Position numbers and translations under genes: made by a program. The notes under the pieces are model-generated. The model was not told the DNA's origin. It did not search any database and saw only the letters and a program-made list of their open reading frames with translations. A stretch of 64,000 bases of DNA from NCBI GenBank assembly GCA_028753945.1, contig JAPNXP010000008.1:2604001-2668000 (forward strand), in the 5' to 3' direction. Origin of the DNA: Hexactinellida sp. DTS-2022. Taxonomy: Eukaryota > Porifera > Hexactinellida. Shown here in pieces: positions 1-56,875 of this stretch; positions within the stretch are counted from its first letter, which is position 1; each line of letters starts with the position of its first letter.

Positions 1-3000
1 CACATAATCTGTCGTTGTTATGAAATATATAATCTTTTTTTTCAATTGGAAAATAGAAGCCTACTCGATCTCACAAGTTGAAATCAATATAATTATTACA
101 AGTTGGAACAATGGAATTAGATTCAATATAATTATTACAAGTTGAAACAATGGAAATTGATTTAACAGTTTTACTGAATCTGAAGTGTGAGGAAATACAG
201 GAGATTGGTACCCCAATTAAGGCACAAATCTAGGCCAAATTGAACATTTTTGATTTGCTAAAAGGTGTAGAATTTAATTCTCTATCCGTACATGTAAAAT
301 TTATCAAGCTCACTATGAATTAGTTAATGCTATGAGCCATAATTAGTTGAAATAGGTGTTAAAATTATTTGATCAAAAATCGTAACCCCAGGTGCAAATT
401 AGACGGTCACTTCGATACTACATGCCAAATTTCAGCCCATAATGTAAACAGGTGTGGCCAGGGTACCGTCTACGGAGAAATAATAATAATAATAATAATA
501 ATAAAATCCAAAATTGCAGCCTGTGCCGACGCATGTTCATTTGGTGGCACTATATTTTGGTGGTGGTCTATTGATAGTGCCTCCAATGGAACATGCTGTC
601 GGCACAGGCTGCAATTTTGGATTTTTTTTTCACCAAGTCATCATCACTATAAAGGTGTTAAATTATTTCAGAAAGGTGTTTCAGAAGGCTACGACCCTTA
701 GAGTGGTGGAAGTTTCCATTTTGCTCACTTCGTTTCAAAGATATTCAAGTTTCAGTAGAATATAATAAGTGATGAATCAGCATTTTTTATGTGAGTGTTG
801 GGTCATCACCCAACTCCAACTAACCCATTTTAATAATATAATTCACAAAATTGTAAAAATACATTTTTTTGACGATGTCATCATCACCTCAAGGTGTCAA
901 GATCCACTTGTATAGGTGGTACGTGCCATAAGGACCAATTGATTCATTTAAAGTTTGTTTCTATCTTCTATCATTTCTGAGATTAATGAAATTTAGATAA
1001 TTAGTATAAATATTTAATTAATCTAAGATAATTTAACACCAATATTATTTACATCAAAATAAATTAAGTTCAATTATTTGCTATAATAATTAATTTAAAT
1101 TTAATTTCACTATCATATTTGAATTCAGCGCACTCGATACCCTAATAATCTAATTGGAACCGTTTCTCTAAGTTAAACACAGAGCGAATTAATTAGAATT
1201 AAATATCTCATGTATCCATTGTTCAAGAATATTCTGAGCAGAAATAAATATAATCACATAATCTGTTGTTGTTATGGAATGTAAAATCTTAGTTTTCAAT
1301 TAGAAAATAGAAGCCTACTCGATCTCACAAGTTGAATCAATGTAATTATCACAAGTTGAAACAATAGAATTCGATTTAACACTTCAATTGAACTGAAGTG
1401 TTAGTATACAAAGGAAACTTGCAACTCAATTGTGGCACAAACGAAACTCAATTTAAAAATTCGTGCACTGTGAAAAGGTGTAGAATTTAATTCTCTATCG
1501 AATGCATATAAATTAAATATTTGTGCACTATTTATTGTTCTTTTTCTAATATTAAACAGGTGCAAAAATGTGTCCAAAAAAATGTAGTAAAAAATCGTGA
1601 CCCCAGGTGCACATCTGTAACCCATGAGACACCTGTCCTGAAATTTTGGGTTCTTAGTTAATTAAACTCTGTTCAGTGGACGATCTACGGACCAAAAATA
1701 ATAAAAATCCAAAATTGCAGCCTGTGCCGACGCATGTTCCTTCGGTGGCACTATATTTTGATGGTGGTTGATTGATAGTGCCTCCAAAGGAACATGCTGT
1801 CGGCACAGCCTGCAATTTTGGATTTTTTTTTGCCATGTCATCATCACTATGAAGGTGTTAAAGGATTTCAAAAAGGTGTTTCAGAAGGCTACGACCCTTA
1901 GAGTGGTGGAAGTTTCCATTTAGCTCACTTCATTTGAGAGATATTCAAGTTTCAGTAGAATATAATAGCTGATGACTCAGCATTTTTTATGTGAGTGTTG
2001 GGTCATCACCCAACATCAACTAACCCATTATAAATATCGAATTAACAAAATTGTAAAAACACATTTTTTTAACGATGTCATCATCACCTCAAGGTGTCAA
2101 TACCCACTTGTATAGGTGGCACGTACCATAAGGACCAATTGATAAATTGGAAGTTTGTTTCTATCTTGTATCATTTCTGAGATTAATGAAATTTAGATAA
2201 TTAGTATAAATATTTAATTAATCTAAGATAATTTAACACCAATATTATTTACATCAAAATAAATTAAGTTCAATTATTTGCTATAATAATTAATTTAAAT
2301 TTAATTTCACTATCATATTTGAATTCAGCGCACTCGATACCCTAATAATCTAATTGGAACCGTTTCTCTAAGTTAAACACAGAGCGAATTAATTAGAATT
2401 AAATATCTCATGTATCCATTGTTCAAGAATATTCTGAGCAGAAATAAATATAATCACATAATCTGTTGTTGTTATGGAATGTAAAATCTTAGTTTTCAAT
2501 TAGAAAATAGAAGCCTACTCGATCTCACAAGTTGAATCAATGTAATTATCACAAGTTGAAACAATAGAATTCGATTTAACACTTCAATTGAACTGAAGTG
2601 TTAGTATACAAAGGAAACTTGCAACCCAATTGTGGCACAAACGAAACTCAATTTAAAAATTAGTGCACTGTGAAAAGGTGTAGAATTTAATTCTCTATCG
2701 AATGCATATAAATTAAATATTTGTGCACTATTTATTGTTCTTTTTCTAATATTAAACAGGTGCAAAAATGTGTCCAAAAAAATGTAGTAAAAAATCGTGA
2801 CCCCAGGTGCACATCTGTAACCCATGAGACACCTGTCCTGAAATTTTGGGTTCTTAGTTAATTAAACTCTGTTCAGTGGACGATCTACGGACCAAAAATA
2901 ATAATAACTAACCAAAGCACTAAGATTAGAACTGGGCCACTATACTATAGTATAGTCGGCACAGTAAAAATCCAAAATTGCAGCCTGTGCCGACGCATGT

Positions 3001-6000: not shown

Positions 6001-7590
6001 TTTATTCTCCCATCAGACGCAGAATTTTATGGCGAATCCAAATATGAAATAAATTTGGGGGGTTAGTAAAACATATTTTGAGTTATGGACCAGACAAATT
6101 TTGAAAGGTGTTAAAGATGTGTCCAAAATTTGTTAATCAAAAATCGTAACCCCAGGTGCAAATTAGACGGTCCCATCGCACCTACATGCAAAGTTTAAGC
6201 CCATCAACTATAAAGCTCTGGCCAGGGCACCGTCTACGGAGAAAAAATAATAATAAAGGCAGTGATTCTAATACTGGGCCACTATACTATAGTATAGTCG
6301 GCACAGTAAAAAAATCCAAAATTGCAGCCTGTGCCGACGCATGATCCTTTGGTGGCACTATATTTTGTTGTTGGTTTATTGATAGTGCCTCCAAAGGAAC
6401 ATGCTGTCGGCACAGGCTGCAATTTTGGATTTTTTTTTCGCCATGTCATCATCACTATGAAGGTGTTAAATTATTTCAGAAAGTTGTTTCAGAAGGCAAC
6501 GACCCTTTAGAGTGGTGGAAGTTTCCATTCAGCTCACTTCATTAAAGAGATATTCAAGTTTCAGTAGAATATAATCTGTAATGACTCAGCATTTTTTAAG
6601 TGGGTGTTGGGTCATCAACCAACATTAACTAACCCATTTTAAATATCGAATTAACAAAATTGTAAAAACACATTTTTTTAACGATGTCATCATCACCTCA
6701 AGGTGTCAAGACCCACTTGTATAGGTGGCACGTGTCATAAGGACCAATTGATATATTGAAAGTTTGTTTCTATCTTCTATGATCTCTGAGATTTATGATA
6801 TTTAATTAATTAGTATAAATAATTATTAATATTATTTATAATATGACACCAATTTCAATGTCAACATACAATTATTAAGTTCAATTATTTTGTCATAAAT
6901 AATTAATTAATTTATTTATCTATCAAATTTCAATTCCGCACACTCGATAACCTCTAATATACAAATTGGAAGCTTCTATATAAGTTAAATACAAACTGAA
7001 TTATTTATAATTAATTACGTCAGTATATTAACAGTGCAATTATATTCTCGCAGAAGTAAATATAATCACATAATATGTCGTTGTTATGAAATATATAATC
7101 TTAATTTTCAATTGCAAAATAGAAGCCAGCTTGAATTCACAAGTTAAATCAATATAATTATAGCAAGTTGAATCACTAGAGTAGGATTTAACAAGTTAAA
7201 TCAATATAATTATTACAAGTTGAAACAATGGAATTAGATTTAACACTTTATTGAAATTGAAGTGTGAGTAAACAAAGAAATTTCAACCCCCATTTATGGC
7301 AGAAATTGACCCCTTTATTGAAATATTTTTTCTCCCATCAGACACAGAATTTTATGGCGAATCCAAATGTGAAATAAAATTTGGGGGTTTAGTAAAACAA
7401 TTTTCAAGTTATAGACCAGACAAATTTTGAAAGGTGTTAAAAATGTGTCCAAAATTTGTTAATCAAAAATCGTAACCCCAGGTGCAAATTAGACGGTCCC
7501 ATCGCACCTACATGCCAAGTTTAAGCCCATCAACAATTAAGCTCTGGCCAGGGCACCGTCTACGGAGAAAAAATAATAAAAATAATAATA
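1..7590. repeat. Tandem array of units of about 1.2-1.3 kb with internal palindromes
   Basis: The same block recurs six to seven times. Landmark 'ataatctgtcgttgttatg' or a close variant is near 5, 1258, 2458, 4527, 5747 and 7070. Bases 1021-1440 and 2221-2640 look identical at a 1200-base offset, so some duplication is recent. Each unit carries a near-perfect palindrome (about 508-626, 1707-1830, 2969-3090, 3819-3936, 4986-5104, 6315-6432) with arms reading CAAAATTGCAGCCTGTGCCG and its complement around GGTGGCACTAT. A second short inverted repeat (GACGGT..ACCGTC) precedes it. One unit (about 2.45-3.34 kb) is shortened. Open frames here follow the palindromes and are not genes. I infer a satellite derived from a foldback-type transposon. 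Confidence 0.85.
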
Positions 7591-7593
7591 ATA

Positions 7594-8231
7594 TTAAAGG
7601 CAGTAAGATTAGAACTGGGCCACTATACTATAGTATAGTCGGCACAGTAATAATAAAGGCAGTGATTCCAATACTGGGCCACTATACTATAGTATAGTCG
7701 GCACAGTAATAAATGCAGTGATTCCAATACTGGGCCACTATACTATAGTATAGTCGGCACAGTAAAAATAAAAATAAAGGCAGTGATTCCAATACTGGGC
7801 CACTATACTATAGTATAGTCGGCACAGTAAAAATAATAAAAATAATAAAGGCAGTGATTCCAATACTGGGCCACTATACTATAGTATAGTCGGCACAGTA
7901 ATAATAAAAATAATAAAGGCAGTGATTCCAATACTGGGCCACTATACTATAGTATAGTCGGCACAGTAATAATAATAACCAAGGCACTAAGACCAATACT
8001 GGGCCACTATACTATAGTATAGTCGGCACAATAATAATAATAATAAAGGCATTGATTCCAATACTGGGCCACTATACTATAGTATAGTCGGCACAGTAAT
8101 AAAGGCAGTGATTCCAATACAGGGCCACTATACTATAGTATAGTCGGCACAGTAATAATAATAAAAATATTAAAGGCAATAAGATTAGAACTGGGCCACT
8201 ATACATACTATAGTATAGTCGGTACAGTAAT
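7594..8231. repeat. Palindromic tandem array, about ten units of about 65 bases
   Basis: About ten units of the form 'aaaggcagtgattccaatac' followed by a GGGCCAC - CTATACTATAGTATAG - TCGGCACAGT core, separated by (AAT)n spacers of varying length. The core is a perfect 16-base palindrome; the last unit (about 8200) carries a 4-base expansion. Single copies sit inside the larger units at about 2925-2967 and 6255-6306, just before the long palindrome. The short array therefore looks like amplification of a fragment of the large unit. Confidence 0.85.
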
Positions 8232-8637
8232 ATATATTTCCTATTTCGAGGATAGGAGTGAGGAAAACCTAACTATCTTCCTTAGCTTGTATTCTATTTA
8301 CCCTCTTTATTATCTATCAATTAAAACAAAGTTTAACTCTCTAGCTCATATACATTCCAACTTCCAAGTTACAGTCAGGTATGTGAATATGGAACTAAAT
8401 GAAGTGTCATTATATTTAACATTAATTGAGATTTTATTATAAACAAGTTATAACAGAAATTTGGGTAGTTATCAATGCGATGTTAATGCTATTATTATTA
8501 GTACTAACTAGTAGCACGGGGGCGACAGAGAGCTTCTATTTATTACGTGATTGCTTTCAACATTGCAGGAATGACTAATCGGAATTTTTGAGATATTTAT
8601 AAGAACCTAATATTTAAAAAACTTGCTATGTTGAAAG
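8232..8637. other. No recognisable feature
   Basis: AT-rich sequence after the palindromic array. I see no coding stretch, repeat or terminal inverted repeat. Confidence 0.5.
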
Positions 8638-12649: not shown

Positions 12650-14607
12650 ATTTCCATATTGCATTGGACTCTCTGACGAAGGATCCGTCCTCTGAATTTT
12701 CAGTCCAGCTGATATCAGCAACAAAATTGCCTGCCTACTTGCCCCAAGGACTCTCGGCCCAAAGAGAGAGATTGTTCGGTGGCAACGCGTACAGGAGAGG
12801 TTCAAGATAAACACTTATCATGGGGCTGAGATTCTGTACTTGTGTGGCAGTGGAGACAAACCAGCGAGACGAGTTCTGTCCACAGACGAGCTGTTTGATA
12901 CACTCGAACGGCTACATAAGGTTGAAGCTGACCACACAGGCAGGCCTAGACTCTATAAGAGAGCATCTCAAGAGTTTTACGGCGTGACTGAAAGATATGT
13001 GGCTTATTCGTGAAAATTTGTTTAGTCTGCTACCTTAAAAAGTCCAAGAAATCGCTCAAGTCCATTGTTGTAAAGCCGATTGTCTCTACTAGTTATCACT
13101 GTCGTGGTCAAGTTGATTTGATAGACATGAGTGATATGAAATTGCAAGCAAATCTCTCCCCTGATGGCGTGACGCCGTACAAATACATCTTAGTGTATCT
13201 GGACCACTTTACTAAGAAGGTCAATTTATCTCCACTTAAGCGCAAATGTGCCGAAGAAGTTGCCGATGTTTTACTAGATATCTTTTGTGATGCTGGTCCT
13301 CCTCATATTCTCCATTCGGATAATGGAAGAGAATTCAAGAATGAACTATTGTTCTCTGCACTAACTCAGAAATGGCCGACACAAAAGATCATCTATGGAA
13401 AGCTCCGTCACCCTGAGTCACAAGGAGCAGTGGAAAGAGCGAATCGTGACATCAAGGACGCTCTATTTACAACTATGCACGATAATTCCAATGATGAGTG
13501 TTGGGTCAAACACCTCAGGTGGGTTCAGTTGCACAAGAACATCAGCTATCATACTAGCATCAGGATGACTCCTTATGAGGCAGTGTATAATAAGAAACCA
13601 TCGTTCGGCCTCGCACACTTTGGAATTCCTCATGAACATTGGGACCAACTATACTCTGAACTAGACCTCAATAGCTACCAAAATGAGACTCGGGACATAC
13701 TGGTAGAAGATGCAGAGGAATTAATTTTATCCGACATTTCCCATTCTGATAATGATCTACCTCCGTCTCCACCATCTAAGTTTCCACCTCTCGTCGATCA
13801 GTACCATGACGATATTTCCCTACCACCACCATTTGGAACTATAATTTCAGAGTATGTTCCTCAATCATCTTATGACTATCCATTAGAGAATATGATTAAT
13901 CTTGATCCCAGTGATTACAACAAATTATCTTCTGAACCTTCGAGTGAGATGAGAAGTGTTGCCTCCGTTACAACTATGAACTGTGTTGCTTGTGGTCTAC
14001 TTACTTCAGGAGCTCATTCGTGTCCGCGATGTCATCATTATATCCACTCTATTTGTGGAAGACTGGAAGGTGAAGAAGGTTATGGCAGCTCTGTTGTTTG
14101 TCCAGCATGTGACCTAGCTGAAAGAGAATACCTTTCGATTCCATGCGTGCTGGTATCAAACGGAATCAAGAAAGGTTACACGAAAGGATGCTAAACACCA
14201 GCTTTAAGAAGTTGAAGCCAGCAGAAGTTGGCGATACTGTTGTAATTCCCATCGCACATCCTGACAAAGTCAATTCTCTCGGCCCAAGGAATGTGTTAGG
14301 TTGCATTGCCGAAAAGGGAGAGACAACATATAGGGTAGGTACCTCGCAAGGTACACTTTCTGTTGGTTATACCAGAAACCAATTTGAATTGTGCCCCACC
14401 AATCTCTTAAGCTGTAATTCTGTTCCAGATGTTACTATTATACAAACTCAGGCAATGCAAAGTGCTTCTTTGGGCATATCTACTGGGTCAGCATGCAGGT
14501 GTGGACATTGTAGAACTCTTAGATGTCCTTGCAAGAAGGCCTCTAGAAACTGTAACTCCAAGTGCCATAAGGGTCGCACTTGTTTCAATAAGTTTAGTTT
14601 TACTTAG
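12650..14607 (+). pseudogene. KRBA2-like integrase/transposase with zinc finger and CXC domain, broken
   Basis: Coding remains in three frames. 12,740-13,009 gives KREIVRWQRVQERFKINTYH and an HHCC-like region (DELFDTLERLHKVEADHTG). From 13,010 the frame shifts and continues with CLVCYLKK and a DDE integrase core: VDLIDMSDM, then HSDNGREFKNELL, then RHPESQGAVERANRDIKDAL with the catalytic glutamate. A cysteine/histidine finger follows (NCVACGLLTSGAHSCPRCHH). A second shift near 14,143-14,194 leads to the C-terminal part with a CXC-like cluster (CRCGHCRTLRCPCKKASRNC). This order matches proteins annotated as KRAB-A domain-containing 2-like or SCAND3-like, which derive from integrase-type DNA transposons. 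At least two frameshifts make it a pseudogene. I found no clear terminal repeats of its own. Confidence 0.8.
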
Positions 14608-16122: not shown

Positions 16123-16352
16123 ATATAATTAACCCACAAGTTATATAAATCAATAGGTACGCGTTTACACCGGTGTGAACGCGTTCACACCAAAATGAGC
16201 AGTGTGAACGCGTTCACACCAATGAAACCGGTGTGAACGCGTATACACCGGTGTGAACGCGTATACACCGGTGTGAACGCGTATACACCGGTGTGAACGC
16301 GTATACACCGGTGTGAACGCGTTCACACCGGGTACGCGTTTACACTGCAACA
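16123..16352. repeat. Inverted repeat arm A (right) with 20-base minisatellite
   Basis: The outer parts are the inverse of 12,149-12,220. The middle (about 16,226-16,330) holds about five tandem 20-base units CACCGGTGTGAACGCGTATA. Each contains the palindrome CACCGGTG and the alternating purine-pyrimidine stretch ACGCGT. A minus-strand open frame here only reflects the repeat. Confidence 0.8.
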
Positions 16353-43592: not shown

Positions 43593-43601
43593 CTCCCAGG
43601 A

Positions 43602-44311
43602 ATGACTGTGAAGTTGGCTTAGTATTCGACCAGGCTCACTTCAGTCAGATATTTGACTCACTTCTAGTTATTAGATTTAAATAAATTTAGTGTCGTTCGA
43701 AAGAGGAGATACGGAGGTTTCCCGTGATATTATTTATTTTTAAATTTTTTAACTTTCAGTTGGTTATTTTTATCATACAAAGCCGCACTGGTATCTCATC
43801 AAAAATCACATTCTCAAAATTTGTTTATAATTCTGAAAATTTGTTATCATACTTTGGAGAGTTGGAGGTTTATGTGATTTAATTTTTATTTGAAATTTCC
43901 CAAAAATTTTGGAGTTATAAACATTCAAACTTGAAGTTGGGAAAAAGAGTGGAAGTAGAATTTTGAAAAGTCCATTGAGTATGCTTAGTTCAAAGTGTCA
44001 ATTCCTATCCAATATCAACCTGTATCTAATTTATTTTGATATCATTCGTTAGAGGAGACACGGAGGTTTACCTCAATGCCATTAGATTCTCGAATATTCC
44101 CTTTATAACAGATAAATAAGTCCTTTAAAAATGGCGTAAATCTCTGTTTTTATTGTTTTATCTATTCAAACTTTGAGCTCAATTTTCCGAGATAAAATTG
44201 AACCAGAATCGATTCAAACTTTACAGGTACTTTCTCTGATATATTATTATTCTATCCCCAGGAAAAAAATCAGGGGTCGCTAGTCATTTCTTTCAGAATT
44301 TTTTAATTTCT
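43602..44311. repeat. MULE left terminal inverted repeat (710 bases)
   Basis: Exact-length partner of 49,986-50,695. The match stops at the same base on both sides (after TTTTTTAATTTCT). Long ends like this usually carry both transposase binding sites and the promoter. Confidence 0.92.
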
Positions 44312-44618
44312 TGGACAGCAATAGCTAATTGTTTAAATTTTCAATATTCATACTTTAGTTTATAATAGCTCAGTATACAAGTATGCACCTATAGCCCTAA
44401 ATGGTATTTCCCACAAGTCTAATTTGCGTCACACAATCGTTAGTTCCACTTACAAATTTAGCTGTTGCGCATTTAGCCTATTCATAGAATATTTAAGCCT
44501 CGACTAGGAGGAGATTTCGAACTTTACATTCATTGCTTTTTTTCATCACTCTTTCAAACTCTTCCTTGATTCTTCTACAATTATTTCTTGAACTTTAGTT
44601 CTTTTCTACAATTATTTA

Positions 44619-47600
44619 TTGATTCATTATTCTCTCTCAATGATTTCTATTGAATTGTGGCGTGCTCACATCGGATTGCATTGCAGCCGTAGATGCAATA
44701 GTACCCATCATCGTCATCAATCAACAGACCAAACTGATTCATCTGTTTCGATTATCTCGGCTTTTATTGCATGTATAGTAGCCATTCTACTCGTCATTGG
44801 TGGCATCGAGATCAATCCTGGGCCTATCACCCCAACTCAAGATACTCATCACGAACGAGGTAATTTTGACTTATATATGTTATGGATAAGAATAACCTTT
44901 ATTGTTATTTTTTTTAGAACTACCAGCTGAGATCAAATCTTTTGTCGACGCACTCCTCTCCACAACACTATCATTCGAACAATTGATCCAGTCCCTGTCT
45001 GCAAGCTACAGTTCGCCCAGTTCCATTTGGGGTTCCATTTGTAAGAAAGTCTACTTGCGAAACAAGCCTGATAAGAGACATAGCTTGTACTTGAAGTGGA
45101 AAAATAATTCTTATGACATAAGAACCCTGGTGAGGGATGCTTTTCCCCCTAGTTCGGAGGAGCAATTTCACGTGAGTTATAGTCTTAGTAACTTAACTAT
45201 TCAGAGCAGAGCGTCATTGGTAACTTCCACAATTCTTAAGGAAGTAAGTTTAAGTGTAGCTGCTTGTTTCGATTTATTTTCGTCATTCGATAACTTAGAT
45301 TTAAGAAAACTTGAATTGAATGTAGTTGACGATAAACTTCTTATTGTGTGGGCATCTTCTGCATCCGACCAAGCTGTGTATGACCGGTTGAAGAGAGATT
45401 CTCAGAATACAAATCTTAGTTCTCTGAATAGTGAAGGTCACGACGCGTATTACATGTTCAATACAACTGAATGCCAGTTATGGGTAGACGGTGCTATGTT
45501 TTATGGATTAATTAATCCACAAAATGTTTCTGGTTTTTTACAATTCGAGGAAATGTGCTATTTTGAGGAGTGTTTTGATTTTATTACCACGATTGTAAAT
45601 ACTTATTGTAAAAGCTTTGTGGAATGTACTCCTTTATTGTTTTTGTGGTTGTCTGAAGTACAGCTTGAATGTAGTTTCTTGTATCAAATGTTTGGTAAGA
45701 AATATGTGTTTTTAAGTGGAAATGACTTGAGTCTTTTTATAACTTGGGTAAAGGTGTTGAGAGATGAGTACAATGCTAATGGTGTTAAGTGCTTAAAAAG
45801 TAAGTGTACTGATTTTAGTGTTAGAGTTGAAAGTGAATTTAGTGAACCACTTCCTCGTTCTCACGATGTGCCTGATATTAAAACTGACAACTTTGAAACA
45901 CAAATGGTGATAGAAAGTTCTGAGATTGAAGTTCTAAGTAGTACAAGTAGTAGTGACTGTGGGGAGTTTTACCTCGAACTGAGTGAGTGGGATAATATTT
46001 GTATTACCAATTCTACTGGTAAAACTTCATTGGTTAGTAATTGGACTAATATTTTTGCTGAAAAATTTAAAGATTTAGCCCCAATGTGTGTTTTGAAGTT
46101 TGTAAATTATTGGTTGAAGAAACCTGATAGTCGCAAGGGTAATAGTCCTTTCTTCAGAGCTAGAGCGTATTGTAAGTTTGAAAATTGTCGATCTTATATC
46201 TTCTATATTGATGATGCACTAAATTTGGTAGATAATGACATACTTGTCAAGATTTACTCAGAAGGATATTTGTCACTTCAACACACAGATGGACAGAGTG
46301 CACATAGTCGCCATCTATCTTGCAGTGAGCGTAGTAAAATGGGAGAATTATTAGTAAATAATTCGGTTATAAAAATTTATAATAAACAGTTTAATAATTC
46401 AAGTAATCCTGGTCTCTGTTATGGTAATTTTACTTCTCTTAAATCACAAGATTGTTTGCGGAAAGTTAAAGCTGAATTGAAATCTAAGGAGCGATTTTCT
46501 AATTTATATATGGAAGATATAACAGCAACCCAGCAGTATTTCCGTTATCTACTTCCTGAATCCCCCCTACCAGGCTATGTTCAGTATTTCGTACAGGATC
46601 CTTTCATTATTCATATGTATTCTTATAAGCAGCTGGAAATTCGAAAACTAATGAATAGTAAAGATATTGTCTTGAATTTAGATGCGACTGGTTCTCTTAT
46701 TTCTAAACCCCCTTCCTGTTCTAAGAAAATATATTACTATGCCCTTACAATACAACACCCGGAGTTTTCCACCAGTCCCATCCCATTTGCTGAAATGATA
46801 AGTAGCGATCATAGCACAGCTGAGATCTCACACTTCCTGAATAAATGGTGTTTGAGTGTAAAATTATTTAACACAATGGAGTTAAAAATTAAGAAAGTTG
46901 AGATAGATTTTAGTTGGGCTATGATGCACAGTACATGTTTAGCGTTTAACAAATTTACTATTTTTCATTATCTCCAATATTGTTGGGAATTTATAGCTAA
47001 TAGTGAGAACTTAGGTGTTATAACAGTCCTCCATCTCTGCTCGGCTCATATCATGCACAGAATTAGTTATAATTTAAATAAGAAATTTAAATTAGAAAAG
47101 GCTTTAAAAAGATTAATATTGCATGTATTTGGTCGTATGGTTAATTGTAAACAAATGGATGAAATTAATCAACTTTTCGGGTTAATTTGTTATATTTTGT
47201 GTAGTAAGAAGCAAACTAGTGTTTATTGCACTAAATTAAACACACTAGAAGAATGTATTAAGGCGGAGATTAATGTTAGTTATGATGTTCCCAATGAATT
47301 CGAGGATGAGACTGAAGTTAAGAGTAATGCTGTAACTTACAGAGATAAATCCCCTTTTGGCCGACATTTTGAAATGATTTATCGTAGTACCTTAGTCTCA
47401 ATAAGCGAATTCGACAATAATTCGCAACTTGATCCTAGTGTATCTTATAACCCCCAGATAGTGGAATTTCTTCTCACGTATTATATGCCATTGTTACCGT
47501 TGTGGAGTGGGATAATTATATGTACAGTTAATTCGTCAGAGAATGCAACAGACAGTAATGCGATTGTTGAGAATTGGTTCAGAATTGTTAAACACAGCAT

Positions 47601-48651
47601 ATTTAATTCAGAGACCGGGATACGAGCTGCTGATTTCATCAGAACAGTTTATAATAACATAGACGATAGGATCGCGGCGTTTAAATTTGCTTTCACTCCA
47701 CTGGCTCATAAAGTGTTTAAAGTTAAGAAGAGATTACGCGTGGAGAATGAGGAGGAGTGCAAAGAGGAGTGGTCTAGAAGTAAGAAGAGTAAATTTAGTT
47801 ATACTAAACCAACTGTTGATAAAGTTAGTACGATATTTAAAAATTTCAAGTCTAAAAGTTTAAGTAGTAAAAATAAAAGTTTTAATGTAGAAAGTATAAG
47901 TAAACGTTCAACAGACAGAGAGGAAGCTACTATTTGTGAAGAAAATCCAGTAGATGTTACTACAGTTATTAATGATATAGTGCGTGCAAGTGTAGTTGAA
48001 ATAATTGGTGATTTAGATTTAGTAGAAATGGCTACCATGGAATATAAGTTACCGGCATTCCAACCACTTACATATCGGGGACAGAAGAAGTTGTGTGAAG
48101 ATTTACATTTACAGTTGTCGGATTCTACAAATTCCATAAGAGATAATATCCCAGGCAATTCTAATTTAAAAGAATATGTTCCTTCGAAGTGTTTGCGAAT
48201 TCCTGGAGATGGAAATTGTTTATTCGCATCATTGTCGTACTGGTTGACAGGAAATATTGATGGTTTTAATTTAATACGGTTGAAAGTTGTAGAGAATATG
48301 GTTGGTAAGCTGAAGGATGCATGCAATAAGTTTATTGCCAATAAATTTCCTAGGAGTGTAATTAACTATCGTAACGTGGCGGACTATGTAGTGAAATCTA
48401 ATATGAAGAGGAATTCTACGTGGGGTACTGATGTGGAGTTATTTGCAACAGCCTTATTATTGCATACGGATATTTGGGTATTTAGTTCAGACATGGGTAA
48501 CAAGTGGATGGTATTCTCAGGTAGAGGGGCTAAACTAATTGATACTTTGGAGTCTCCTCCAGGAAATAATGCAGGCTCTATCTATATTAATCATAATGGA
48601 GTACACTATGAACCAATATTACGGGTGGATTTAATATCTACGGGCAATTAA
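44619..48651 (+). CDS. MULE transposase with C-terminal OTU protease and N-terminal 2A-like motif
   Basis: Two exons: 44,619-44,859 and 44,918-48,651, together 1,324 codons plus stop, with no interruption. The 58-base intron has GTAATT..TTTTTTTTAG and joins in phase (HHER-ELPAEIKS). Residues 43-60 are hydrophobic and are followed by GGIEINPGP (NPGP at 66-69), a 2A-like motif. A zinc-finger-like region has C499-x4-C504 and H543-x2-H546. DDE core: D669 (LNLDATGSL), D744 (EIDFSWAM), C788-x2-H791 (HLCSAHIMH, the MULE CxxH insertion motif) and E965 (NAIVENWF). OTU domain: D1178-G-N-C1181-L-F and H1310 (GVHYEPI). The transposase should cut and rejoin the inverted ends. The OTU domain may deubiquitinate host factors or process the protein itself; that is inference. 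ATG at 44,640 is an alternative start. Confidence 0.9.
44799..44825 (+). other. 2A-like ribosome-skipping motif (GGIEINPGP)
   Basis: Codes for GGIEINPGP, preceded by a hydrophobic run (FIACIVAILLVI). The 2A consensus is D-[VI]-E-x-N-P-G-P; here I, E and NPGP match but the first D is G. If functional, translation would release an N-terminal leader of about 68 residues and restart at P69, leaving the transposase-OTU body separate. Confidence 0.5.
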
Positions 48652-49104
48652 TGAATTCACTGATTACCTCGTAGTCGTAGATATTAATTAATTAAAACTA
48701 TATACTACGTAATTAGAAAACCAAAGGATTCCCTTTATTAGTTAATGATTAATTGTCTTATGCGGAATGTTATCCAGGTTTAGAAGTGATCCTATTAATT
48801 ACATCAATAGAAGCAAAGAAGAATAAAATTATTTCGGGCTCTTCTTATAGAGCAAAAATTGCGATTCTCATGTCTACAGCCACCTTCTCTACTAAAATAG
48901 TAAAGATTTTCAACAACTTTTATGTTGGACAGTGTGACATAGCGGTGTGTGATCCACGAGAGCTTATGGTCAGTCACTCCCAGGAGGACTAGGTGCTGCT
49001 GGAGCTGTGTAGACAGCGAGAGAGAGCAGGCCTAGGTGTGTCGCGACGATGGAAGAAGTACCATCTGGACGAGGTCGGACACTGCGGTCTTAGTGAGCGT
49101 ATCG

Positions 49105-49158
49105 AGGGTAGAGGACTGGACCGTCCTCCTGATGAGGCCTATGGAGGGCCGAAACCCT
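49105..49158 (+). ncRNA. Hammerhead ribozyme, type III (sequence match)
   Basis: All core parts are present in order. Stem III 3' strand AGGG with cleavage triplet GUA (cut after A49110). Stem I hairpin GAGGAC-UGGACC-GUCCUC, fully paired. Core CUGAUGA (49,129-49,135). Stem II GGCC-UAUGGAG-GGCC, fully paired. Core GAAA (49,151-49,154). Stem III 5' strand CCCU. Stems I and II are closed by loops and III is open, which is type III. Stem III has only four pairs, so a single copy may cleave slowly. Hammerheads occur in retrozymes, Penelope-like elements and satellites, where they process tandem RNA. It lies in the 3' noncoding part of the MULE, downstream of its gene and on the same strand. Confidence 0.85.
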
Positions 49159-49387
49159 AGAGTGGTGGCGACACCACTTGGACCACTTGAGCTGTCAATG
49201 GTGGCAGCTTGATACAGAAAGGTCTCAAAGCTTCTCATGACAACAGTTATAAAGTGGTAAGTTATATTCTTAAATGTACATGTGGATGATTTATAAATAT
49301 CTGTGTAAAGATTTATCCTATAGTTCTTTATAAGAAGGCAAATACAAAAAGGAATTGATCTATCCCAAAGCAGTCGGAATTGATATA

Positions 49388-49579
49388 CAGTAGTCTCCCA
49401 AAACGGACACTCCGAGGAGCGGACAACACATTTAAAACGGACAAACCTCCTGGAACGGAATGAATTTACCATGCATGTAATTAATACTTCAGCCGTCTCC
49501 GAGAAGTGGACATCTCCAGAGTCCAAAGAACAAACAAAGGCCATGTCCCCAACGTGTCCGTTATTCGGAGACTCCACGG
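49388..49579. mobile_element. Tigger/pogo-like MITE inside the MULE
   Basis: CAGTAGTCTCCCAAAACGGAC pairs with the inverse CCGTGGAGTCTCCGAATAACG, with TA on both sides. Related to 24,330-24,567. Confidence 0.82.
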
Positions 49580-49985
49580 TAAACACACATTATTTTAATG
49601 AGATACCTGGATGCCATTCTCTCTTCTTGGAATTGGATAAGTAAGATCAATCCAAAAAGTAGTGGAAATTGATACAAGCACACATTGTGGATGCCATTCT
49701 TCTTGCATTTGTTAATAATTATATAATTATCACTACCATTATTACAACCAGAATAATTCATTGTTTACTGATTCTGTTTGCATTCCAATCATCTGATTAG
49801 TTATATAGTTGCAATTACAATTTGCTATTATTAGTTGAAACTCAATACTACAATGGGAACTAAGAGAAGCGAATGAATTGTGTTACATTACGTAGATAGT
49901 ATAAATGATATCACTAATATTGATGTTATGATGAAATAAAGATAGGCTTAGCTAAAATAATGAGATCGAAATTGAAACATTTTGG

Positions 49986-50695
49986 AGAAATTAAAAAATT
50001 CTGAAAGAAATGACTAGCGACCCCTGATTTTTTTCCTGGGGATAGAATAATAATATATCAGAGAAAGTACCTGTAAAGTTTGAATCGATTCTGGTTCAAT
50101 TTTATCTCGGAAAATTGAGCTCAAAGTTTGAATAGATAAAACAATAAAAACAGAGATTTACGCCATTTTTAAAGGACTTATTTATCTGTTATAAAGGGAA
50201 TATTCGAGAATCTAATGGCATTGAGGTAAACCTCCGTGTCTCCTCTAACGAATGATATCAAAATAAATTAGATACAGGTTGATATTGGATAGGAATTGAC
50301 ACTTTGAACTAAGCATACTCAATGGACTTTTCAAAATTCTACTTCCACTCTTTTTCCCAACTTCAAGTTTGAATGTTTATAACTCCAAAATTTTTGGGAA
50401 ATTTCAAATAAAAATTAAATCACATAAACCTCCAACTCTCCAAAGTATGATAACAAATTTTCAGAATTATAAACAAATTTTGAGAATGTGATTTTTGATG
50501 AGATACCAGTGCGGCTTTGTATGATAAAAATAACCAACTGAAAGTTAAAAAATTTAAAAATAAATAATATCACGGGAAACCTCCGTATCTCCTCTTTCGA
50601 ACGACACTAAATTTATTTAAATCTAATAACTAGAAGTGAGTCAAATATCTGACTGAAGTGAGCCTGGTCGAATACTAAGCCAACTTCACAGTCAT
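49986..50695. repeat. MULE right terminal inverted repeat (710 bases)
   Basis: Inverse of 43,602-44,311, ending ..CAACTTCACAGTCAT, followed by the duplication CTCCCAGGA. Confidence 0.92.
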
Positions 50696-50704
50696 CTCCC
50701 AGGA

Positions 50705-51418: not shown

Positions 51419-52174
51419 TAGTTGGAATAGGAAGTGAATGTAAGTGGACAAGAAAATGATAAAATAAATAAAATGGAGGCAAATAACTAATAAAAATTTT
51501 TTAAACTTGGTATTTAGTAGGATAATTGTAACAAAAAAATGTGGTTCATTATAAATAGAAATATGGGTTAAAAAACGCTTCATGTCCCTGAGATTTAGGC
51601 CACAGGACCCCTAAAAAAAGAATTCTGTTTAATATTGATAACTAATTACAACTTAAAAATTCTGACTAATGCATGCTCCTCATACGAACCAATATAAGGA
51701 TATTAGTTTCAACTTTCAACCCTAGAATAATTGAAATTATCTTTTACTTTAAGTTTAGGATTCAGTAATTTTAGCGCTTTTACTATTCTGTAACTACTCT
51801 ATTATTAGTTATACTATAAGATGCACAGTTCTAAAATAGTTCTGATATAGATTATAAAATTAGACAGAAGATGCAGAATTTCCTGAAGATGTGCACCTCG
51901 AAGCCCGATTTCTTAATTTCGTCTTTATTCGTCAGTTATATCGAATTTGTGTTCTGGTCCAGTGACGCTTTGATAATTCGAATAACCAATTGAAAACATA
52001 GAGGTTGTATTCTCCTAAAGATGTCTTTTATCCATTTATGATTCTTATTAAAATATTAAGTAATTATGTTAATTCAAATGAAATAGAATTCGAAATCAAA
52101 AATTGGGTGCGGCTTGTGTAACCAGAAGAAGCACACTCCCATTGCGTCTGTGAGGGTTTTTTGCGAATCAGAAG
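51419..52174. other. No recognisable feature
   Basis: AT-rich noncoding sequence before the Gypsy element; no coding or repeat signal that I can support. Confidence 0.4.
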
Positions 52175-52371
52175 TGTTATGTCCCAATTAGGATAACCAG
52201 TAGAGAATATACAAGTAGAGGATAATGAGATATCAACTTTAAGAGTGAACAATAGGTGAATAAATAAAGACTAAACTAAAAGAGTATATGGTTAATCTTA
52301 CTTAGTATAGTTCTAATGATAGTGCCTATTCGGTAGTAATCGACTAGGGAGGTAATAATCACTTCACAACA
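52175..52371 (-). repeat. 3' LTR (197 bases)
   Basis: Differs from the other LTR at about one position. Target repeat GAAG at 52,171-52,174. Confidence 0.9.
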
Positions 52372-52487
52372 TCACCCCCTCCTCTACAAACTCTCGTCGT
52401 CAAAACTGTCATCAGAGAGGTCATCTAGCCATTCTGATTCGATCAGTTTCCTGGATGGCTTCCTTATCCTGTTTGATGTGCGAGGTC

Positions 52488-54419
52488 CTACGTCTGATAC
52501 GATTTCTTCGAACTCTGGGTTCTGTTCGGGACGGTTGTGTACTCTTCCTCGCTAAGATCGTCTTCTGAACCGTATCCTTCCGGTAGGTCAATGTCTGCAG
52601 GTTTGGTCCTGTAGCAATTAGGGAAGTAGAGTTTTGGAAGGTAAGGTTTGCATCTATTTAGATGTATCCACTTTTCTAGGGACCTTTCCTTCCCTATTCT
52701 TTGTTTGATCAAAACATTAGGTCCTTTTCTATGTATTACTGCATACGGCCCGTCAAACTTTTGGTCGAGACTACTCTTTCTATTCTGGTTCTTCAGTAGT
52801 ACTAAATCTCCAATACCTATCTTGGAATCGACTTTTCCCTTATCGAAGTAATTTTTCATAGTGGCCCTAGATTGGGTAAGATTTTCTCCCACTTCGTCGT
52901 TGATCATATCTTCCATGAGTTCCAATTCCGTTACCCAATCGAGTATAGAATCATATCCCTCTCGAGTACTAGTTTCCAAAAAGGCGGTCGACAAAGGTTT
53001 GGGATCGATTCCATACATAACCCTGTAGGGTGTAAAACCTGTACTCTTATTAGGTATAGAGTTCAGTATGTAACTCACTTCGGGGAGGACGGTCGGCCAA
53101 CTATCTTTCGCCACCTGTCTCTCCTCAAGCATACACCGCATGATCTGTTTTATTGCCTGAATACCACGTTCGCTATGGCCGTCCCCTTCTGGATGGTAAG
53201 GCGAACTTCTTTTCTTCTTAATTCCGTGCATTGCTAAGGCGGTCCTTATTTCGCTCCCGTCCACGTTAGGCCCCGAATCACTAAGTATGAAGTTTGGAGG
53301 ACCATGCCTATAAACCCAACCATCGAGTATTCCTCTCACGATAGTGGACGACTCTTGGTCTGCCATGGGATACAATTCTACGAATTTGGAAAACAGGTCC
53401 ACCATGAGTAAAAAATAACGGTGGTTGGATGATGCCCACGGTAAAGTGGCCACGTCGAAGGCAATCATCTCTCGAGGCCTCTTGGAAACATTAATTGGGA
53501 TAAGCTTTTCTTTCGGGTTGCTGTTGGGTTTATTCTTGTGACATATGAGACACCCCCTGCAATATTCATCAATATCAGAATCCATTCGCTTCCAGAAGAA
53601 TCGGGTTCTGACAAGGCGTGTCGTCTTGTCGACACCTGGGTGACCCATACTGTGCACTATCGAGATTGCTTCTTGTCTCATAGCCCTTGGTATAACGACT
53701 TTACTTCCTCTGCACAGTAATCCTTCCCTTAAGGTCATTCCAACTTGGTTCTTGAATTGGCCCTGAGTGACTTGGTTCGTTTCCCGGAGTTGACTAATCG
53801 CCGAAGATACAAGAGCATCTTCCTCTTGACATCTCTTCATTTTGTTGTGCCAATTAGGATCATAGCTAATCTGGTAAATGTGTCTTTCGAAATGTTCTTC
53901 CTCGTCGTTCACTTCCCAATCGATATCAGTACTAATCCTGGAAAGGAAATCAGCCGGCCCATTCTCGACACCCTTTACGTATTTGATCTCGTAAGCGAGG
54001 ATCTCCAGTTCCTGTATCCATCTCGCGAACTTCCCCCGTGGGTCCTTTTGTCGTCGTAGCCACACGAGAGGGTTATGGTCAGAAAGGAACTGAATGCTAG
54101 GAGCTGCTTGTAAATACTTTCTGAATTTTCTACTGGCTGCAATTACCGCCCAGCACTCCAATTCTCCTGCTGAGTACTTCTTTTGAGCTGGGGTTAGCCC
54201 TGATGAAAAGTATGCGATTGGTTTCAATCGCCCGTCTGTCCCCTCTTGGGATAATACGCCTCCAACGGCTATTGCAGAAGCGTCTACTTGTAATGTAAAC
54301 TCAGAGTTCCAATCTGGGAACGCTAGCATTACCGGTGGCTTAATTAGCTTGTTTTTGAGGATGTTGAAAGCGGTCTCAGCGGTTTCGTTCCAGATCCATT
54401 CTGCTGAATCACGTGTCAA
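52488..54419 (-). pseudogene. Gypsy pol, 3' part: RNase H and integrase
   Basis: 643 codons. RNase H begins FTLQVDASAIAVGGVLSQEG, with FLSDHNPLVWL. Integrase zinc region: HSMGHPGVDKTTRL and CRGCLICHKNKP (HHCC). Integrase catalytic residues: IAFDVATLPW, ILSDSGPNVDG, and YHPEGDGHSERGIQAIKQI with the glutamate. C-terminal GPY-like region: KFDGPYAVIHRKGPNVLI. The frame opens with MTRDSAEWIW, which is internal RT/RNase H linker rather than a true start: the upstream codons (FADIAEPLYIL) belong to the same protein but are reached only after a one-base shift near 54,451-54,460. All catalytic motifs are intact. Confidence 0.9.
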
Positions 54420-56269
54420 TATATATAATGGTTCTGCGATATCGGCGAATCCTGGACATGCTCTCGGTAATAATTAACTAATCCCAGGAACCTTAATAAC
54501 TCTTTCTTTGACCTTGGTCTCTCGGCTGTCTTGATCTTCTCTACGAGCCTTGGGGTGGGGTGGTGACCATCTGCTGTGATCATATGGCCGACGAATTCCC
54601 CTTCGGGATACCCGAAAGAGCATTTATCCCGCCTGAGTTGGACGTTCGCCTTACTCAATGCCTCCAAAGTGGATTTAAGGTCTGCAATGTGAGTGTCAAA
54701 TTCTGATGAATGCACGCAAATATCGTCAACGTATGGGTCTGCGTGGATTACGGGTCTCAAAGTCTCGTCCATTAATCGCTGGTAGGTTGAACCACTATTT
54801 ACTAACCCGAAAGGCATCCTATTAAATTCGTAAAGGCCCTTTGGGGTCGTAAACGCTGTCTTGAATTTATCTTCCTCCGATATTTCTATTGCCCAATATG
54901 CCGAAGCTCCGTCCAAAAATGAAAAGTTTGTATCACCAAACATCCGATCTAGAATATCTTTCGGATGGGGCATGGGATAAGAGTCGGTGCGCGTAACCTT
55001 GTTTAGTTCACGAAAGTCAACGCAAAACCTTCTGTTATCATCACGCTTGGACACCAATAAGACTCTGCTCGCCCAAGGTGAGTTTGAAGGTCGACAAATC
55101 CCGTTAGATATCATATCCGTAACCTGAGTCATAATTTCTTTTTCGACCGCCGGCGCCACTGGGTAAATTCTCTGCTTAATAGGTTGTGCATCCCCTGTGT
55201 CAATCTTGTGTTTTACTCCCTTGGCGATACTCGGGCATTTTGGGTTGTCAGCAAATACGCCGGATAACTCTCTAAGCATAGTTGTCAATTTGTACTTTTG
55301 TTGGTTAGATAGCCTTGGGTTAATGTTAAAGCCTGGTCCGGTACAATTATTTTCTCCTGCAACTGTACTGCTCGAGCTATTACAATCTTGGTAAGTTGGG
55401 AGAAACGATTCTGCCAAATAAGCTTTCACTAGTGGTTCAGCCCCTTCTATCGTAATGTGTGAATTCTTCCAAACGTCGCCTACGCGTACTTGATGGTTTA
55501 TCCAGTCAAATTCCAAAGCCCCGAACTTAGAGAGTAAGTCTCTCCCTAAAATGCAAGTGTTTTGGACTCCGTTCAATACTTCGAAAGAGTGTTGCACGGT
55601 TTGATCGTTTCCGAGGTCTAATAGAACCTCTAATCTCCCGACAACGTTTATCGGTTCTTGAGCTAAACCGAATATCTTGCTTGTAATGTTGCGCATGCGT
55701 GTTTCAAGTCCCAAATTCCGAACGGTTTGTAAATCTACGACTGAAGGACCGGCGCCGCTATCGAGTAACGCTGATACAGGTTCGCCATCTAACTTCATGG
55801 GTAAGACCACAGCCAGGTAGTCGAGTGACTGGGATTGACCAACACAAAATACTTTTCGATTGGCTCCTGAAGGTTTCTTCGTAGAAAAGTCCTTCAAAAT
55901 GTGACCTTTCTGCCCACAGGAGGGGCACCTCTTTTCAGGACAGAATCTCCACGCGTGTCTATCCCCACAAATATAGCATCCGCTGCCGCTTGCACGCCTC
56001 GATCTGCCTGTCTGTTTGGATCTCCAATTATTGGGCTGTCCCTTCAAGTAAGCGACTTGGTTTGCCGGTTCTAGACTATCGTCATTCCCTGCATCGTTTT
56101 GCTCTATAACTGCTACTTTCGTGATTGATTCAAAGTTGCGGTTTCCTTTATTCAGAGCATAGCCTTTCTCTATTAGTTCAGCTTTAACTGACCGGATGAG
56201 TTTATGAGCGTCTGCGTGTTCTAGACTGTCGTTTATTCCGACTACCTGCTTTAATTCTCGTTTGGACAT
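54416..56269 (-). pseudogene. Gypsy nucleocapsid, protease and reverse transcriptase part
   Basis: 617 codons from 56,269 down. Two zinc knuckles: CYICGDRHAWRFC and CPSCGQKGHILKDF; the last cysteine of the second is F. Protease ALLDSGAGPSVVD. RT motifs: VSKRDDNRRFCVDFRELNKV, SFLDGASAYWAIEI, MPFGLVNSGSTYQRLMD and YVDDICVHS, with a complete active site. It ends FLGLVNYYREH then runs out of frame to a stop at 54,416, where one base is lost or gained. It overlaps the gag frame by 68 bases at 56,202-56,269, so either a programmed shift or a mutation joins gag to pol. Confidence 0.9.
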
Positions 56270-56667
56270 CTCTTGGTACTTGCGCGGCCAATAAGGAAGC
56301 GACGTGTTTCAACCCTAATTTGGCGTAGGTAGCCTTTCGTTTCAGGAGGAAGAAATATTCCCCTATGTCTTGGCCAGGTTGCCAATGTAATCGACTGACT
56401 TCCTGCATGGCTATGAAGGTGTCCATCGGGGGGTCTAGTACCCCTGCTAGGTTGCTGAGTGCCTCATCCAGACTGTTCGCAGACTTCACGATATCTCTCA
56501 CTGCTTCGCGGTCAGCAATGTCTCTATTCTGGTAACAAATGAATTGCTCTTTTCTCCCCATCCTCTGCCGCAATCATATGTTGAGTGCTTGCCTCGAAAA
56601 GGTGCCGCCAATCCTCGATTCGGTCGCCTTTCTGTAGAAGGGGTACTGTGATCGGAGCGGTAGCCAT
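56202..56667 (-). pseudogene. Gypsy gag (capsid), with a frame break
   Basis: Starts at 56,667 (MATAPITVPLLQKGDRIEDW) and meets a stop after AIHLLPE. The next frame resumes DRD-like sequence (RDIADREAVRDIVKSANSLD) and runs MDTFIAMQEVSRLHWQPGQD, GEYFFLLKRKATYAKLGLKH, ending at 56,202 before the zinc knuckles. One base is missing or extra near 56,540. Gag forms the particle that packages the RNA. Confidence 0.8.
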
Positions 56668-56678
56668 TCACATATTTG

Positions 56679-56875
56679 TGTTATGTCCCAATTAGGATAA
56701 CCAGTAGAGAATATACAAGTAGAGGATAATGAAATATCAACTTTAAGAGTGAACAATAGGTGAATAAATAAAGACTAAACTAAAAGAGTATATGGTTAAT
56801 CTTACTTAGTATAGTTCTAATGATAGTGCCTATTCGGTAGTAATCGACTAGGGAGGTAATAATCACTTCACAACA
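56679..56875 (-). repeat. 5' LTR (197 bases)
   Basis: Partner of 52,175-52,371. GAAG follows at 56,876-56,879. It should contain the promoter for the minus-strand transcript. Confidence 0.9.

Follow-up and report, generated by a model that had tools for sequence, protein, structure and literature searches.

A type III hammerhead ribozyme in the LTRs of small, probably non-autonomous retroelements of an animal genome, and its solo LTR inside a Mutator-like DNA transposon

A type III hammerhead ribozyme lies, in sense orientation, 0.28 kb downstream of the end of the long open frame of a DNA transposon in the stretch of 64,000 nucleotides analysed here (contig JAPNXP010000008.1 of Hexactinellida sp. 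DTS-2022; "the window"). To what kind of element does this ribozyme belong, and does it serve the transposon in which it is found? A previous sequence-only reading of the window had left two answers side by side, namely processing of the transposase mRNA or a retrozyme-like insertion. With a probability of about 0.9, the hammerhead is part of an LTR retrozyme, a small and non-autonomous LTR retrotransposon, and resides in the LTR of that element. The features of the window are compiled in Table 1.

Table 1. Features of the hammerhead locus and its surroundings (positions are those of the window).
Feature	Position	Strand	Basis
Host transposon, left terminal inverted repeat, 710 bp	43602..44311	+	100% complementary to 49986-50695
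Host transposon, open frame of 1251 aa (stop to stop) with C-terminal OTU domain	44896..48651	+	ORF and Pfam
Left target-site duplication, ACAG	48929..48932	+	Reading, empty sites
Solo LTR of LTR retrozyme, family A, TG...CA, 310 bp, 55% GC	48933..49242	+	Boundaries from standalone copies, empty site
Type III hammerhead ribozyme	49105..49158	+	Direct reading, Rfam Hammerhead_3 at 49103-49160, covariation
Right target-site duplication, ACAG	49243..49246	+	Reading, empty sites
Host transposon, right terminal inverted repeat, 710 bp	49986..50695	-	Identical inverted pair with 43602..44311
Gypsy-type LTR retrotransposon	52174-56875	-	LTRs 52174-52371 and 56678-56875, 99.5% identical, about 200 bp

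The hammerhead, its insertion and its carrier

Direct reading confirmed that the hammerhead is complete and that its core is intact. The window copy possesses the conserved type III core CUGAUGA...GAAA...UH, three helices and an open helix III, which is formed by 49105-49109 (AGGGT) and 49154-49158 (ACCCT); the pairing described earlier for this helix holds, its length being 5 bp instead of 4. The cleavage triplet is GUA, and the scissile bond is predicted between 49110 and 49111. Helix I is paired at 6 of 6 positions (49111-49116 with 49123-49128) and closed by a 6-nt loop. The CTGATGA core at 49129-49135 is followed by helix II, paired at 4 of 4 positions (49136-49139 with 49147-49150), and by the GAAA core at 49151-49154. 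Both of these pairing counts had been given correctly, and helix II gains a U-G pair (49140 with 49146).

The minimum-energy fold of 49105-49158 as computed with ViennaRNA is the hammerhead; its energy does not stand out from that of sequences of like composition (z -1.08; as low or lower in 26 of 200 shuffles). A structural scan found one hammerhead motif in the window, compared to none in 40 dinucleotide-preserving shuffles. Rfam, applied to the whole window at the gathering threshold, returned zero matches; when a 1-kb segment was searched with an E-value threshold, Hammerhead_3 matched over its full model length at 49103-49160 with 36.2 bits (E 6.2e-6), which is below the curated gathering score of 48.5 bits of RF00008. 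Lack of an above-threshold covariance match had been named beforehand as a finding that would speak against the ribozyme, and formally this is the outcome for the window copy, although other LTR families of the same genome score 49.9-58.1 bits. Weak Rfam matches to mir-216, PyrG and sR4 adjoin the motif; each was under its own threshold, and all three were dismissed.

The segment with the hammerhead is present in 15 full or partial copies of the host transposon (the window and L032-L045), and also stands alone outside this transposon, in more diverged copies. The standalone copies have TG...CA boundaries in common, by which the ends of the window copy were placed. Insert-free copies of the host transposon align uninterrupted through the junction in all eight cases fetched, with a single ACAG in seven and ACTG in the eighth; these are the insert-free matches beginning at the junction, other partial matches starting at least 130 bases away or representing second pieces of fetched copies. 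Given these empty sites and the ACAG on either side, the segment is an insertion with a 4-bp target duplication, and we identify it as the solo LTR of a small retroelement. The proposal of a retrozyme-like insertion is thus borne out: its ends are exact, the target site is duplicated and empty sites exist. The GC-rich segment 48,975-49,215 to which it referred is real, and the insertion extends beyond it.

Mutator-like elements are characterized by long terminal inverted repeats and target duplications of 8-11 bp. The carrier, which spans 43602-50695, likewise ends in long inverted repeats and is bordered by a 9-bp direct repeat, CTCCCAGGA, at 43593-43601 and 50696-50704. The 9-bp duplication is exact in the window, L037, L038, L041 and L045, comprises 8 bp in L043 and is not exact in L036; the remaining eight of the 14 other host copies were unscored, an end being missing or changed. 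In a Pfam search at E up to 1, the 1251-aa frame matched OTU only, with no MULE or transposase domain. The previous assignment is therefore borne out by the structure and not by a transposase domain, and "Mutator-like" is a fair name for the structure of the carrier. With Mutator-like transposons it has the long inverted repeats and the 9-bp duplication in common; here it is the carrier only, and a Pfam transposase domain was not found in its frame.

Upstream of the transposase-like frame, a small frame at 44592-44930 (+) contains the sequence GGIEINPGP, which we take to resemble a 2A-type translational break motif. Another frame of the window (12992-14194, +), comprising an integrase core and a SCAND3-like zinc finger, is probably a further transposon-derived gene. 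Tandem arrays with palindromes within their units are located at 7581-8232 and 16227-16345.

Complete elements and families in the genome

The genome assembly comprises 112.4 Mb in 18 contigs. Genes of TGF-beta/BMP ligands occur at four places on contigs C2, C7 and C10 (best 4.8e-27), and the best match of the TGF-beta family in the PDB is BMP6 (4.3e-34). BMP ligands are an animal-only trait; as judged from these metazoan-specific signalling ligands, the host genome is that of an animal. A search for Wnt genes gave no match and was uninformative, its control being silent as well. Since retrozyme copies are located on the same contigs as the TGF-beta genes (C10, C2, C7), contamination is an unlikely explanation.

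A 281-bp query comprising the hammerhead segment gave at least 43 matches in the genome, 15 of them within copies of the host transposon and the others outside. We refer to the LTRs related to the window copy as family A. A second family, B, has an LTR of 238 bp (family range, 222-238 bp) whose sequence is unlike that of family A; the family B query yielded at least 47 matches, 40 of 259 candidates having been scored.

Elements with two LTRs were found in both families. The family A element L027 consists of two direct 302-bp LTRs, the second being 99% identical to the first, and an interior of 73 nt, with the target-site duplication CTAT on both sides. The sequence TGGTGCATTGGCCGCGAA follows the first LTR after two bases, AGGGAAGAGTGA directly precedes the second, and the hammerhead of the 5' LTR has one mismatch in stem III. 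L024 also contains two family A LTRs, with flanks (CTTA/CTTC) that are not an exact duplication. About 850 bases of downstream flank and about 45 bases of upstream flank are common to L024 and the one-LTR locus L025, so that the two look like one insertion before and after losing one LTR. In a subfamily of B, L062 and L064 have LTRs of 222/223 bp and a 149-nt interior ending with AGGTGAGAGGAG, flanked by the duplications ACATG and GTTAC, respectively; L063 of the same subfamily is a direct two-LTR element as well, with the duplication ACATG. As judged by the length of the interiors (73 nt in L027, 149 nt in L062 and L064), coding capacity is absent.

The primer-binding site provided an independent way into these elements. 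The genome contains a tRNA-Gly(GCC) gene (L089), and TGGTGCATTGGCCGGGAA is the reverse complement of the 3' end of this tRNA plus CCA, at 18 of 18 bases. The site of L027 differs from it by one base and that of L024 by two. Searching the genome with this 18-mer and allowing up to two mismatches gave 13 places, seven of them exact, compared to zero places for the reversed pattern. All seven exact places were read: one is a family A element (L028), and the other six, in L050-L053, belong to family B and are all preceded by ...TACTACAT. Among the six inexact places, the two that were read are the family A elements L024 and L027. An intact forward hammerhead lies upstream of four of the exact sites (L028, L050, and the plus-strand sites of L052 and L053); it is truncated in L051, the 3' LTR of which has an intact one, damaged at the minus-strand site of L052 and inverted at that of L053. 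As family B was reached via the primer site and not via the ribozyme, it is an independent confirmation. The main site matches tRNA-Gly and not tRNA-Met, and the interiors of L062 and L064 begin with the primer-site-like sequence TGGCGACGAAGGTGGGAT, a putative site of another tRNA. A polypurine tract directly precedes the TG of the 3' LTR, namely AGGAAGAAGGAG in B (all purine), AGGTGAGAGGAG in B2, the subfamily of L062 and L064 (one T), and AGGGAAGAGTGA in A (one T).

Single-LTR copies are flanked by an exact 4-bp duplication in 7 of 11 cases in family A, and by an exact 5-bp duplication in 8 of 15 cases in family B; by simple arithmetic, about 1/256 and 1/1024, respectively, would be expected per copy by chance. 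For family A, 16 of the 31 loci (window, L009-L031, L046, L082-L087) were unscored, having no full-length end or not being projectable, and L024, L027, L028 and L086 were read apart from the count; the 15 family B copies exclude the two-LTR or rearranged loci L050-L053 and L062-L066. In L012 and L014 (A) and L076 (B), a duplication appears only if the LTR end is shifted by a few bases, and these loci were left out of the counts. Copies without a clean duplication are L046 and L084 of family A, and L068, L079, L080 and L081 of family B.

Besides direct pairs, two-LTR copies with inverted or rearranged arrangement occur at L028:1489-2218, L050:424-1104, L053, L066:120-662 and L086:153-647. In L028 (CAGG), L066 (GATTA) and L086 (CTCT), a target duplication still encloses the whole inverted or rearranged unit. 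Such copies are not predicted by a simple LTR-retrozyme model.

LTR retrotransposons in general possess a primer-binding site, a polypurine tract and ends of integrase type, and the LTRs might belong to an autonomous LTR retrotransposon with hammerheads in its LTRs, the short copies being deletion derivatives. A rare long form could have been missed, because about 40 candidates were scored per DNA search. However, interiors are short in all five direct two-LTR copies that were read (L024, L027, L062, L063, L064), with an LTR-to-LTR spacing of 371-397 bp, and both families are short in spite of their unlike LTR sequences and duplication lengths. We consider a small, non-autonomous element far better supported, and give the autonomous parent a slim chance.

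Among the loci, a motif scan that skipped L001-L008 and L047-L049, which are duplicates of other loci, detected 60 hammerhead motifs, 33 of them distinct. When 12 loci were analyzed with Rfam, family B and other LTR types were those with scores above the cut-off, and four family A copies scored 35.0-39.8 bits, below it; the family A copies in L014, L046 and L087 gave no Hammerhead_3 match at E up to 0.01. In the genome-wide search with Hammerhead_3, 64 of the 68 scored candidates exceed the cut-off (68 of 12319 loose candidates were scored); compared by eye, none of the 68 falls within the loci read here. Some of these best-scoring matches form direct pairs 313-653 bp apart, and some form inverted pairs. 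Hammerheads above the cut-off were also seen in LTR-like repeats unlike A and B, at L010:489-542 (+) and 762-821 (-), L014:1994-2047 (-) and L087:391-444 (-), the two hammerheads of L010 facing each other.

Constraint on the ribozyme and its relation to the carrier

Two alignments were used to look for compensating changes. In alignment A1, which comprises 21 distinct ribozymes (families A and B and the LTR-like repeats of L010, L014 and L087) picked by the motif scan, 99.7% of the cells pair, and changes on both sides occur in 6 of 16 pairs, distributed over all three helices, compared to at most two with slid partners. Further pair types in A1 were no more numerous than expected from shuffling, 467 of 500 shuffles reaching the same number or more. 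Alignment A2 has 57 distinct rows that were fitted by a model to the structure, which favours the structure; here, 96.8% of the cells are paired. Double-change cells number 60, whereas shuffles give 19.0 and slid controls no more than 7. Double changes affect 6 pairs versus 3.7 in shuffles (14 of 500 shuffles as high), and further pair types, 19 versus 18.2, showed no excess (160 of 500 shuffles).

When standalone copies of family A were compared to the window LTR, differences fell on 123 of 1740 ribozyme positions (7.1%) and on 1368 of 5964 LTR positions outside the ribozyme (22.9%). In 28 of the 30 alignments, the ribozyme has diverged less than the remainder of the LTR, the exceptions being L013 and L085; six of originally 36 alignments did not span the ribozyme and were left out. 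The ribozyme matters to the retroelement, and we see no clear sign of its mattering to the carrier.

The latter point bears on the idea that the Mutator-like transposon has taken over the hammerhead, which would then cut the 3' untranslated region of the transposase mRNA. The sense orientation and the short distance from the open frame would suit such a role, the scan-passing motif has been kept in 10 of the 14 other host copies, and mismatches to the window, added up across these 14 copies, rise from 2.1% in the ribozyme to 3.6% elsewhere in the LTR and 6.5% in the flanks, figures in which shared ancestry is counted repeatedly. When variable sites are counted instead, with the standalone L046 left out, they comprise 10 of 58 in the ribozyme, 39 of 252 in the rest of the LTR and 67 of 490 in the flanks (14 host copies; Fisher p 0.69 and 0.43). 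Moreover, the core C is changed in L034 and the U of the cleavage triplet in L044, and eight host copies lack the hammerhead altogether. As the ribozyme shows no extra conservation within the DNA transposon, a role in transposase mRNA processing, as envisaged by the sequence-only reading, is unsupported, and we regard it as quite improbable.

It is still less probable that the copies represent a metazoan-type non-LTR retrozyme or a satellite with a hammerhead that is of type III by happenstance. The host is an animal, and a unit of about 375 nt (see below) is within the 170-400 nt given for animal retrozymes in passages of Cervera and de la Pena 2020 (PMC7229834), so that host, hammerhead and unit length range agree. 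The elements described there are, however, of type I, are organized as tandem repeats of low GC content, and are without LTRs, primer-binding site and polypurine tract, whereas the elements analyzed here possess a type III hammerhead, LTRs, primer-binding site, polypurine tract and 4-5-bp duplications; arrays of more than two direct LTR copies were not seen in the loci read. A genome search with Hammerhead_1 gave no match at E up to 0.001, which is a weak argument (73 of 14702 candidates scored, control silent). The complete LTR elements already contradict this interpretation. A chance motif without function, for which the score below the Rfam gathering threshold and the ordinary fold energy could be cited, is the least credible explanation, considering the outcome of the shuffles, the covariation between families and the lower divergence of the ribozyme in nearly all standalone alignments.

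Proposed life cycle and comparison with known retrozymes

For the LTR retrozyme, we infer a cycle of transcription, cleavage, circularization and mobilization by a helper in trans. A transcript running from LTR to LTR would carry two hammerheads, and if both cut, a unit of about 371-380 nt would be released, with primer-binding site, polypurine tract and the equivalent of one LTR. The predicted unit has 375 nt in L027, and the hammerheads are spaced by 372, 380 and 371 in L062, L063 and L064, respectively. By analogy with plant LTR retrozymes as portrayed in parts of PMC4918200 and PMC7761336, the unit is presumably closed to a circle. Priming might be by tRNA-Gly or, in one subfamily, by a different tRNA; a helper LTR retrotransposon would provide the reverse transcriptase that copies the circle and the integrase that inserts the product with a duplication of 4 bp (A) or 5 bp (B). 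The two duplication lengths suggest two helpers. The window copy came to lie downstream of the Mutator-like open frame by insertion, either being already a solo LTR or becoming one later, and subsequently multiplied along with the transposon as its passenger.

The Gypsy-type retrotransposon of the window (Table 1) has a 4-bp duplication, CTTC, as read by eye, and two overlapping frames with protease, reverse transcriptase, RNase H and integrase domains. The junctions GTGA/TGT (tract/LTR start) and CATAACA (LTR end) as well as the 4-bp duplication are common to this element and some family A copies. Of an LTR retrozyme one would expect a Ty3-gypsy helper whose ends and primer site are similar. 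A tRNA-Gly primer site was sought in the Gypsy element of the window and not found. Considering its similar junctions and the lack of this site, it is at best a candidate relative of the helper.

Non-coding two-LTR elements that are mobilized in trans likewise have two LTRs, a primer-binding site and a polypurine tract and lack coding capacity; the elements analyzed here differ from them by the hammerhead in the LTR.

Plant LTR retrozymes, according to passages of Cervera, Urbina and de la Pena 2016 (PMC4918200), resemble the present elements in having LTRs of a few hundred bp with a type III hammerhead inside, a primer-binding site, a polypurine tract, 4-bp duplications (as family A here), a non-coding interior, two-LTR copies besides solo LTRs, and a GC content above 50%. 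By the same passages, differences concern the host, which is an animal here; the primer, which is tRNA-Gly (a putative other tRNA in one subfamily) instead of the tRNA-Met of plants; the interior, of 73-149 nt compared to about 300-700; and the unit, which at about 375 nt has about half the size of their roughly 700 nt. Family B differs from them additionally by its 5-bp duplications and its shorter LTRs. tRNA-Met is named as the primer of plant LTR retrozymes in passages of PMC7761336 as well as PMC4918200. By the features tested, the elements are LTR retrozymes: they have a hammerhead in TG...CA LTRs, a primer-binding site, a polypurine tract and target duplications, with priming by a tRNA other than tRNA-Met and a circular RNA that is predicted.

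The statement of the sequence-only reading that animal retrozyme hammerheads are mostly of type I agrees with the descriptions given in passages of PMC7229834, PMC7761336, PMC4918200 and PMC11722881; the last of these restated, in 2024, the division into plant LTR and metazoan non-LTR retrozymes. According to parts of PMC4918200, primer site and polypurine tract were undetected in metazoan hammerhead repeats, except for a full tRNA in schistosome repeats. Because metazoan retrozymes are described as type I and non-LTR, a type III LTR case is unusual. Type III topology as such is found in animals, in animal-associated agents and in dipteran genomes, as outlined in passages of PMC7936874; the toad and termite agents differ by much longer helices and by their location within delta-like circular RNAs, and for the similar dipteran motifs an LTR element is not described in these passages. 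The open-licence literature, mostly at the level of titles and abstracts, yielded no report of an LTR retrozyme in any animal, which is not proof of absence. What appears to be new is a compact LTR retrozyme with tRNA-Gly priming, occurring in several families, in an animal.

A more far-reaching interpretation, which we consider rather doubtful although less so than the alternatives discussed above, would be that animals have a plant-type LTR-retrozyme system of their own, made up of several element families with unrelated LTRs. These families would be connected by a common hammerhead design and, in two families, by the tRNA-Gly primer site, would employ at least two integrases, as indicated by duplications of 4 and 5 bp, and would spread as circular RNAs which, at about 375 nt, have the size of viroids. 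Copies in inverted or rearranged order that have duplications (L028, L066, L086) might then be products of copying both RNA polarities, i.e., of rolling-circle RNA replication in an animal.

An animal that harbors several families of the "plant" kind breaks the division between plant and animal retrozymes. The LTR-retrozyme design would be older and more widespread than thought, or it has moved between kingdoms, or it arose more than once. The case also shows a hammerhead hitch-hiking and multiplying within a DNA transposon. With its predicted circles of viroid size, this animal system makes the link between retrotransposons and circular RNA agents directly testable.
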